Of a stretch of DNA of 35,193 bases, positions 2,132 to 35,193 are shown piece after piece. A program made the translations under genes and the position numbers. The stretch is from an uncultured Chloroflexota bacterium. GTDB taxonomy: Bacteria > Chloroflexota > Chloroflexia > Chloroflexales > Roseiflexaceae. The notes under the pieces are model-generated. The model ran no database searches. It had not been told where the DNA came from and was given only the letters and a program-made list of their open reading frames with translations. How positions within the stretch are numbered: the first letter of the stretch is position 1; each line of letters begins with the position of its first letter. The DNA is taken from NCBI GenBank assembly GCA_937859575.1, contig CALLZL010000140.1, positions 1 to 35,193 of the forward strand. Reading direction: 5' to 3'.

Positions 2132-3548
2132 GGCGATTCCGCGGTTTGATCAGGATGCTGAGCCATGGAACAGCCGTATGCAGTGCCTCAAGCAGAGCGG
2201 CGCTATCGTGTGATGCATTATCGACACCACGCGTATTCGGGATGCCACGCAGCCGTGCCAGAAGATACACCAGTGCGCTGAGTACCAGCATCAGGCCGGC
2301 CAATGCCAGCGATGGCAGTACTGTCACTTCGCGGCGTGCTGAGTCGATCAGCGCGATACCCACCCATGGTCTGATTGCCGTATCACCATAGACCGTCAGG
2401 CCGCCCTGGAGTTGTTCGATCACCGGCTGCACCAACGCCATGGTAAGCGGCGGGGTCAGGATCCCGGCGGCAAGCGAGGCAGCGGCACAGACGATCAGCC
2501 GCCGCCGCCCCACCGGCGGTGGGGAAGCCATGACCGCCACGGCATGCAGCAGCATGGCGATCCAGCTGAGTGCCGCCAGCAGGCTGAGGCCACCGGCGAT
2601 TGTGGCACCAACCAGCATCCAGGTTGCGACAAACGGTGCGCTGAGCGGGAAGGCACCGCTCAGCAACCAGCGCGTCAGCGGCGGCGATATGGACGCACCC
2701 GCCGCCGGGTGTGCTTCATCGGTCGCGGCAACGCTGATCAGCCATGCACCAATGGCGGCACAGGCAGCCGCAATACCCGCACCACTGGCAAGCCCGATAC
2801 CGCTCAGCGCCATGCCGAGCATGCCGCTATGAAGTTGTGTATGGCGATGTGTTGCCGCGCTGCCGCGCAGGGTACCAATCGCCGCCCAGAGCATGATCGC
2901 CGTGCCGAGCAGGATGGCAGCAAACGACCAGCCTTCGTTCCAGGGGCTGATCGTATACAAGCGGGCCAGTGGAAAGAGCCAGATGATCTGGGCTATAGCC
3001 TGATCGGGGGCTTGCTCGGCTGGTGCCGCAGCCTGCAACAATAGCGGCAACACCGCTGCCAGCAAGATCAACCCGAATAGACTACCGTCGAGTGCCGCGC
3101 CGGCCAGCGGATCGCTGAAGGCAAAGACGCCGCGCAGTGCCAGAATGCCGGCCGCTGCCACGAGCGCGCCGGCAGACAGCAGGGCGACGAGCCGGGCCGG
3201 GCGGCGATCGGGCGCTGTTATGGCGAGCATGCCCAGCAGCAGCATACCGGCGGCCGGCAGCGCCAGCGGTGTGATGATTGCTCCGAGCAGCAAGCCGAAA
3301 CCGATGAGCCGGCGGGGCGGCGCGACCGGCGCGGCCGGTACGGCGCCGGCGCGCAGTAACATGCCGGCACACAATGCAACGACAAAGAAGGCGGCTAGTG
3401 CATCGAGGTAGATCAATGCCGCCAGTGCCAGCGGGGCACGGCGTACCACCCCGGCCAGCACAAGCGCCGCCAGGCACGCGGCCGCGGCGGCAAGCGCCGG
3501 TGCGCGCAGATCAAGCCGCAGCAAGAAAGGAGAAAGCCGTCTGTCCAT
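2118..3548 (-). CDS. Large polytopic membrane protein, possibly NuoN/HyfB-like
   Basis: A 476-residue protein with roughly a dozen hydrophobic segments. The segment around LHSGMLGMALSGIGLASG and the following helices look like the TM7-TM8 region of antiporter-type Complex I/Mrp/hydrogenase subunits (NuoN, HyfB), but the strongly conserved Lys/Glu channel residues are hard to find. A C-terminal hydrophilic stretch (RGIPNTRGVDNASHDS) precedes a last amphipathic part. ATG 3548 is preferred to the in-frame ATG at 3575 because the latter lies inside the palindromic divergent spacer and adds a Cys-containing, non-hydrophobic leader. Its neighbour 1301-2131 looks NuoH-like, which together suggests a reduced or remnant Complex-I-type membrane module. 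Low-complexity Ala/Leu composition limits certainty. Confidence 0.5.
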   Translation of the reverse strand: MDRRLSPFLLRLDLRAPALAAAAACLAALVLAGVVRRAPLALAALIYLDALAAFFVVALCAGMLLRAGAVPAAPVAPPRRLIGFGLLLGAIITPLALPAAGMLLLGMLAITAPDRRPARLVALLSAGALVAAAGILALRGVFAFSDPLAGAALDGSLFGLILLAAVLPLLLQAAAPAEQAPDQAIAQIIWLFPLARLYTISPWNEGWSFAAILLGTAIMLWAAIGTLRGSAATHRHTQLHSGMLGMALSGIGLASGAGIAAACAAIGAWLISVAATDEAHPAAGASISPPLTRWLLSGAFPLSAPFVATWMLVGATIAGGLSLLAALSWIAMLLHAVAVMASPPPVGRRRLIVCAAASLAAGILTPPLTMALVQPVIEQLQGGLTVYGDTAIRPWVGIALIDSARREVTVLPSLALAGLMLVLSALVYLLARLRGIPNTRGVDNASHDSAALLEALHTAVPWLSILIKPRNRHERR

Positions 3549-32795: not shown

Positions 32796-32846
32796 GCATT
32801 ACATTTCATCTGAGTATACCACAATACATGAATGAGGTCAACCACA

Positions 32847-33623
32847 ATGCGGAAGAGCAAGGTACTTGCCAAACTACGGGCGGGCGCATTCGCACGGTTC
32901 TCGGCGATGGGTCATTTTCTGCCGTTTTTTGTGCAGCACAGTGCGGCAAACGGCTACGATGGAATCTGGCTTGATCTTGAGCATCGCACAATGGGGGATC
33001 GCGAGATCCAGGCGCTGCTGGCGTATTGTCATGTGAGCGATATCGACTGTATGGTGCGCCCGCCGACGCGTGAGCACAGCCGGCTCTACCGCTACCTCGA
33101 GGAGGGCGCAAGTGGCTTGATGATGCCGCTTGTTGACAGTGCCGCCGAGGCAGCGCGCATTGTAGCGGCAATCAAGTTCCCACCGGATGGGAACCGAGGC
33201 CTTGATGGTGCCGGCTTCGATGCTCGGTTTGGTTTTGACGCCTGGCCGGCCGGCAGCAATTTCCCGGCCGACGCCAATCGCGAGACATTCCTACTGGTGC
33301 AGATCGAGACACAGGTGGCCGTAGCGGCCGCCGACGAGATCGCCGCCGTGCCGGGGGTTGATTGTCTGTTTATCGGGCCGGGTGATCTGCGGTTGCGCCT
33401 TGAGGCGGCCGGTGAAGACGCCGATGCCGGGATCGCTGCTGCGGTCGAACATGTAGCTGCCGCTGCACGGCGGCATGGCAAGGCGTGGGGTATTACGGCC
33501 GGCACAACCGAAGTATTGGCCCATTACCGTGATCTCGGAGCGCAGATCATCCCGTGGGGCGGCGATTTTGCGCTGGCGGCGTATCTTGCGCAGTGCGGGC
33601 GCGATCTGGCGGCGTTGGGGTAG
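32847..33623 (+). CDS. HpaI/HpcH-family aldolase
   Basis: A 258-residue class II aldolase of the HpaI/GarL/RhmA type, which splits 2-keto-3-deoxy sugar acids into pyruvate and an aldehyde. Landmarks: GIWLDLEHRTM, CMVRPPTREHS, GLMMPLVDSAAEA, LLVQIETQVAV (metal-binding Glu) and DCLFIGPGDLRL (metal-binding Asp). ATG 32847 follows GAGGT with 8-base spacing; the in-frame ATG at 32832 has no ribosome binding site. As first gene of the plus arm it pairs with the MR/MLE enzyme downstream, which would supply its 2-keto-3-deoxy substrate. Confidence 0.9.
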   Translation: MRKSKVLAKLRAGAFARFSAMGHFLPFFVQHSAANGYDGIWLDLEHRTMGDREIQALLAYCHVSDIDCMVRPPTREHSRLYRYLEEGASGLMMPLVDSAAEAARIVAAIKFPPDGNRGLDGAGFDARFGFDAWPAGSNFPADANRETFLLVQIETQVAVAAADEIAAVPGVDCLFIGPGDLRLRLEAAGEDADAGIAAAVEHVAAAARRHGKAWGITAGTTEVLAHYRDLGAQIIPWGGDFALAAYLAQCGRDLAALG

Positions 33624-33727: not shown

Positions 33728-33739
33728 GGAGGAAAGAAG

Positions 33740-34495
33740 ATGAATCGACTAACCGACAAGGTCGCACTGGTGACGGGTGCTTCGCGGGGGATCGGGCGCG
33801 GGATTGCGATCTGCCTGGCGGAAGAGGGTGCCGATGTGGTGGTTGGCTACCGCACCCATCCCGAGGAGGCCGAAGAGACGGCGGCCGCGATTGCGGCACT
33901 TGGGCGCCGGGCAATCATCAAGCAGGTGGATGTTGCGCGTCGCGATGAGGTGATGGCGCTGGTACGTGCAGCAGTCGACGCATTCGGTCGTCTCGATATC
34001 GCGGTTGCCAATGCAGCCTTTTCGATTCGCCAGCCGGTGGCTGAAGCAGTATGGGAGGATGTGCTGCGCACGCTTGAAGTCACACAGCATGGAGTGTTTC
34101 ATACATGCCAATTTGCGGCGCAGCAGCTGCTGGCACAGGGCGGCGGCGGCAAGATCATCATCATCAGTTCGGTGCATGCCGAAAAGCCGGTTGCCAGCAG
34201 TGCAGCCTATAACATGGGCAAAGCGGCGATCAACCATCTTGGTGCAACAATGGCGTCGGAGCTTGCAGCGGCGCGCATCAATGTCAATGTTATTAATCCG
34301 GGATGGATCGACACCCCCGGTGAACGTGCGTTTTATAGCGAGGAGCAGATCCAGGCGGGCGGTGCGAAGATGCCGTGGGGGCGGCTCGGTACCCCGCGTG
34401 ATATCGGGCGCAGTGTCGTGTTTCTGGCAAGTGATGATGCCGACTATATTACCGGTTCGGTATTGCGTGTTGATGGCGGCATCATGGTGCGTTGA
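33740..34495 (+). CDS. Short-chain dehydrogenase/reductase
   Basis: A 251-residue classical SDR. NAD(P)-binding TGASRGIGRG (residues 13-22), the NAxx-type block VANAAFSI, catalytic Ser in IIISSVHAEK, YNMGK with catalytic Tyr and Lys, and the C-terminal GSVLRVDGG are all present. GGAGG precedes the ATG; the frame extends upstream to 33554 through the preceding gene and is not supported. The residue after the nucleotide-binding strand (VVVGYRTHPEE) is not a clear Asp, and the following Arg hints at NADP(H). Within the locus it may oxidise a sugar or a 2-keto-3-deoxy acid. Confidence 0.92.
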   Translation: MNRLTDKVALVTGASRGIGRGIAICLAEEGADVVVGYRTHPEEAEETAAAIAALGRRAIIKQVDVARRDEVMALVRAAVDAFGRLDIAVANAAFSIRQPVAEAVWEDVLRTLEVTQHGVFHTCQFAAQQLLAQGGGGKIIIISSVHAEKPVASSAAYNMGKAAINHLGATMASELAAARINVNVINPGWIDTPGERAFYSEEQIQAGGAKMPWGRLGTPRDIGRSVVFLASDDADYITGSVLRVDGGIMVR

Positions 34496-34530: not shown

Positions 34531-35144
34531 ATGCAGATTACCGATGTACGCTGTTTCTTGTGCTCGTCGAGCAACCCCGCCGGCTATGTTGCCGGTTCGG
34601 CCATTATTCGCATCGAAACCGATATTGGGGTTGCCGGTCATGGCGAGGCACTCATGGGGCTCTTCTGTGGTGAGGTTGCCGCAGCAGCAACGCAATACTA
34701 CGCGCCGCTGTTGATTGGCGCCGATCCGAGCCGTATTGGCGCACTCTGGCAGACCATGTTCGATTCGAGTGTCTGGTGGGGTCGCAGTGGTGCGGCCGTA
34801 AGTGTGATCGGCGCCATCGAGACGGCTCTATGGGATATTGCCGGCAAGCTGGCCGGAGTGCCATGCTACCAGTTACTTTCCGACACCCCGCGCGCCAGTG
34901 TGCCGGTGTATGCCAGCCTCGGATCGGCCCCCGAGGATCCGGCCCGGGTTCCGCCGCTGGTCGAGGCGCTGGTGGCCGAGGGGTTTCGCGGCCTGAAGCT
35001 GGGCCTGCAGTTTGGCAATGCGGCCGGTACCGAGATCTATGAGCCGCGTGGTGATGCCCTGCTCGCATTGCTTGACACGACACTCGCCGCCATCCGGCGC
35101 ACGGTCGGCGATTCATTCATTATCGGTGTCGATGGGCATATGGG
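34531..35144 (+). CDS. Mandelate racemase/muconate lactonizing enzyme family protein, partial
   Basis: The first ~204 residues of an enolase-superfamily enzyme that is cut by the contig end. The N-terminal capping domain (MQITDVRCFLCSSS...AALWQTMFDSSVWWGRSGAAVSVIGAIETALWDIAGKLAGVPCYQLL) and the start of the barrel (VPVYASLGS, GFRGLKLGL with the catalytic-side Lys, IIGVDGHMG with the first metal Asp) are clear. Residues that would follow (DRKSVV and a stop) are adapter sequence, not protein. CGGAGG precedes ATG 34531. Relatives dehydrate acid sugars such as fuconate, rhamnonate or galactonate, and would feed the HpaI aldolase three genes earlier in the arm. Confidence 0.9.
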
Positions 35145-35193
35145 AGATCGGAAGAGCGTCGTGTAGGGAAAGAGTGTAGATCTCGGTGGTCGC
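35145..35193 (+). other. Illumina adapter contamination at contig end
   Basis: From AGATCGGAAGAGCGTCGTGT onward the last 49 bases match the reverse complement of the Illumina TruSeq universal adapter, as remembered, through to the final base. This is library sequence left in the assembly, so it must be trimmed before any protein or repeat analysis. It creates a false in-frame stop at 35164-35166 for the MR/MLE gene. Confidence 0.97.

Follow-up and report, generated by a model that had tools for sequence, protein, structure and literature searches.

Adapter contamination of microbial genome assemblies has been described by Moeller et al. (2024, BMC Genomics 25:1033; PMC11536531). According to the passages of that paper considered here, adapter sequence was significantly enriched (p < 0.01) in 1110 of 15,657 reference assemblies, contiguity was better after trimming, and the conclusion drawn for other microbial assemblies is that adapter breaks contigs. 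On the protein side, the known relatives are the MR/MLE sugar-acid dehydratases of the enolase superfamily, which have the MR_MLE_N domain in common with the last gene of the sequence studied here, a gene of which this sequence holds the N-terminal half only. We analyzed a whole stretch of 35,193 bases (referred to as the window) and consider it nearly certain, with a probability of about 99%, that its tail is untrimmed Illumina TruSeq adapter that gives this MR/MLE gene a false end.

The window is the entire contig (C140), whose total length is exactly 35193 bases; the adapter reaches the final base and therefore sits at the physical contig end. A previous reading made from the sequence only had taken the final 49 bases for read-through into the TruSeq universal adapter, and the alignment bears this out: positions 35145-35193 (AGATCGGAAGAGCGTCGTGTAGGGAAAGAGTGTAGATCTCGGTGGTCGC) are identical, 49 of 49 with no mismatches, to bases 1-49 of the reverse-complemented universal adapter, which is 58 bases long. 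The probability of an exact 49-mer match arising by chance is negligible. The 13-base adapter core, AGATCGGAAGAGC, has a single exact occurrence in the window, at 35145-35157. Both arms of the TruSeq adapter are also quoted in the passages considered from Moeller et al. (PMC11536531). The 26 bases preceding the junction at 35144 occur once in the assembly, and no alternative contig continuing past 35144 was found there.

The consequence for the gene is a matter of reading frame. Starting from ATG 34531, which is preceded by GGAGG as a plausible ribosome site, the frame runs for 205 residues and then continues with DRKSVV and a TAG stop. Codon 205 (35143-35145, GGA, Gly) is the last one with genomic bases, its third base being the first base of the adapter, whereas adapter bases alone make up the codons of residues 206-211 (DRKSVV) and the TAG stop (35164-35166). 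The foreign part of the 211-residue protein is only its last six residues and the stop; residues 1-205 are genuine. Because the adapter keeps the frame open for six codons and then supplies a TAG, gene-calling software would take the 211 residues for a complete protein. The sequence-only reading had anticipated precisely this, a seemingly complete MR/MLE protein of about 211 residues ending in DRKSVV, and the length is correct when counted from ATG 34531; from the upstream TTG 34492 the open reading frame has 224 residues. The features of this region are collected in Table 1.

Table 1. Features at the 3' end of the window (positions are those of the window).
Feature	Coordinates	Strand	Basis
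HpcH/HpaI aldolase-family gene	32832..33623	+	Pfam HpcH_HpaI E 3e-30; same neighbour in both relatives
SDR-family dehydrogenase gene, immediately upstream of MR/MLE	33734..34495	+	Pfam adh_short_C2 E 7e-59; same neighbour in both relatives
Genuine 5' part of enolase-superfamily (MR/MLE) dehydratase-like gene (residues 1-204, plus two bases of codon 205)	34531..35144	+	Pfam MR_MLE_N E 4e-16; 141/205 identical to 402-aa ortholog; cut by contig end
Illumina TruSeq universal adapter read-through, non-genomic	35145..35193	+	49/49 identity; 53 further contig ends in assembly carry TruSeq adapters
False codons D-R-K-S-V-V and false TAG stop, adapter-encoded	35146..35166	+	Translation of adapter bases

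A frame that is open and closed by a stop is also what would be seen if the 49 bases were genomic and the gene encoded a real short, C-terminally truncated MR/MLE protein. However, such a genomic tail would be exactly identical, over all 49 bases, to a synthetic oligonucleotide, and the same adapter is found at dozens of other contig ends. The assembly consists of 735 contigs (5.3 Mb). We counted adapters as exact copies of the 13-base core, and extracted and classified the surroundings of every copy. The core has 57 copies in the assembly, against a chance expectation of about 0.16, and its sequence read backwards, used as a control, has none. Outward-pointing cores that start 13-55 bases from the end of a contig account for 54 of the 57 copies. 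These terminal copies comprise 26 with the universal adapter and 28 with the indexed adapter (one of the 28 has only 13 bases and is not typable), and 42 of the 54 tails have no mismatch to an adapter over their whole length. The indexed copies of sufficient length carry a single barcode, TAGCTT, which we take to be TruSeq index 10. Both adapter types are present, matching the expectation for paired-end read-through. Of 400 sampled genomes from the phylum, 29 besides this one contain the core at all, none of them more than 3 times; thus, with 57 copies, the library behind this assembly is unusually poorly trimmed.

The remaining three copies are internal, with partial adapter lying between genomic stretches: in C520 (7223-7246), in C524 (around 3430-3471), where a frame open for 277 codons enters the adapter, and in C688 (from 4045). 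At these places, therefore, either the joins are chimeric or genes are interrupted by adapter.

The gene itself points the same way. Its product contains the N-terminal capping domain (PF02746, MR_MLE_N; E 4.1e-16), the only Pfam domain found in the 211-residue window ORF, where the C-terminal barrel domain (PF13378) has no match. The latter domain is present in the orthologs and on another contig of the same assembly (C713), and its lack in the window ORF is thus due to truncation of the gene, not to biology. G008:C353 and G002:C170, the two orthologs, come from the same bacterial family and have 402 residues each. Residues 1-205 of the window protein are 68-69% identical to both of them, and the alignments end at residue 205, exactly where the adapter starts. 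The nearest solved relatives of the full-length ortholog are galactonate dehydratase-like proteins (e.g., 3sjn and 5olc). When the full-length ortholog was tested against the NCBIfam equivalog models, it reached no named substrate family; its best score was 149.6 bits, against a cut-off of 311 for galactonate dehydratase. The nearest named families are sugar-acid dehydratases, but the scores lie far below every named equivalog cut-off, and for this reason we leave the substrate unassigned. The gene encodes an ordinary enolase-superfamily enzyme. No copy of it was found in the plasmid collection.

The missing part of the gene can be located. When a full-length ortholog is compared with the window's own genome, its residues 1-206 match C140, and residues 256-397 match C713 starting at base 31 of that contig; the segment unassembled between the two contigs amounts to about 50 codons. 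Over the residues equivalent to ortholog positions 257-395, C713 is identical to each ortholog at 90 of 139 positions, and its match to the Pfam MR_MLE C-terminal domain begins at profile position 98. The real gene has about 400 codons, with its 3' part at the start of C713. Another claim of the sequence-only reading, that the true gene is truncated and continues off the contig, is thereby supported. As for a genomic tail, a protein ending in DRKSVV would be without most of its catalytic barrel domain, whereas the orthologs are of full length, and this very gene has its C-terminal part elsewhere in the assembly. The assembly-wide adapter pattern and C713 together refute a genomic origin of the tail, which we regard as practically inconceivable.

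Gene order agrees with this continuation. Both relatives have an HpcH/HpaI aldolase gene, followed by SDR dehydrogenase and then MR/MLE. The G002 contig extends further: a 464-aa gene comes next, followed by a 2-hydroxyacid dehydrogenase-like gene and then by proteins of 372 aa and 391 aa. At its end C140 has the aldolase, the SDR dehydrogenase, and the start of the MR/MLE gene, and C713 carries the rest of MR/MLE, followed by genes that match the order in the relatives. Because the MR/MLE gene is split between the two contigs and the gene order matches that of the relatives, C140 and C713 are almost certainly neighbours in the genome, although their physical adjacency is deduced.

We found no evidence against the adapter explanation; the one untidy point is the first 33 bases of C713. 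Their translation is not the one expected for the MR/MLE gene; what they resemble is codons 126-133 of this gene family in G008. The possibility that they are degraded adapter was rejected, as they score no better than shuffles. Being neither the expected gene nor adapter, they make the C140-C713 join itself untidy, and they suggest either that the contig tip is chimeric or that the copy is rearranged. The latter would fit a reading in which the adapter is real contamination, yet the gene is also naturally broken nearby, that is, a pseudogene: the mismatch with the expected gene and the resemblance to codons 126-133 could then reflect rearrangement or an internal deletion. On the other hand, the frame is open and conservation is good over residues 1-205 as well as 257-395, the gene order agrees with that of two relatives carrying intact genes, and chimeric tips are plausible where adapter broke the assembly. 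We therefore hold a pseudogene to be very unlikely, and, judged from the same 33 bases, rearrangement or partial deletion of the MR/MLE copy behind the tail to be highly improbable. Under every reading, the adapter-encoded tail is an artefact.

As to how the untrimmed adapter came to end the contig, we infer the following course, step by step. Some inserts would have been shorter than the read, so that reads passed through the insert into the adapter on its far side, and adapter trimming of the reads would have been incomplete. The assembler may then have extended C140 from genomic base 35144 into adapter. Since every adapter copy has the identical sequence, the assembly graph would branch at this shared stretch, and the contig would stop there.

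The same false ending can be seen in other records. An "endonuclease" of Escherichia phage HMD-P3 (XIJ71931.1; PQ462667.1) also ends in DRKSVV and a stop, read from this adapter in an identical frame. Its gene is unrelated to that of the window protein, however, and the adapter lies within a record designated complete rather than at a contig end. In PQ462667.1 the adapter lies at 1001-1033 of the extracted region, and the CDS just downstream of XIJ71931.1 is also called endonuclease; with endonuclease CDSs on both sides of the adapter, one gene has probably been split in two. The genome of Pbunalikevirus phiFenriz (KT254133.1), a phage genome recorded as complete, contains all 49 adapter bases in an unannotated gap (1001-1049 of the extracted region). 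Within the present assembly, a frame of at least 60 codons is open into the adapter at 40 of the 54 adapter-tailed contig ends, and at 28 of these 40 the longest open frame is closed by an adapter stop; thus, gene calling on it could yield several short "complete" proteins. Such records may be found by their signatures, namely the protein endings DRKSVV, DRKSTRLNSSH, and IGRASCRERV, and RSEERRVGKECRSRW. The significance of the finding is that of a data-quality warning on database records only.

A literature search for adapter-encoded peptides found no paper. The tail of C140 belongs to a known class of artefact and holds no biological novelty. In the passages considered, Moeller et al. (PMC11536531) deal with the MGnify catalogues and with assembly contiguity, and, unlike here, false protein ends are not discussed in them. 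In its form, however, the contamination seen here is like theirs: the TruSeq core (AGATCGGAAGAG) stands at contig ends and, as its reverse complement, at contig starts, the universal- or index-specific arm comes next, and the contigs are broken there.
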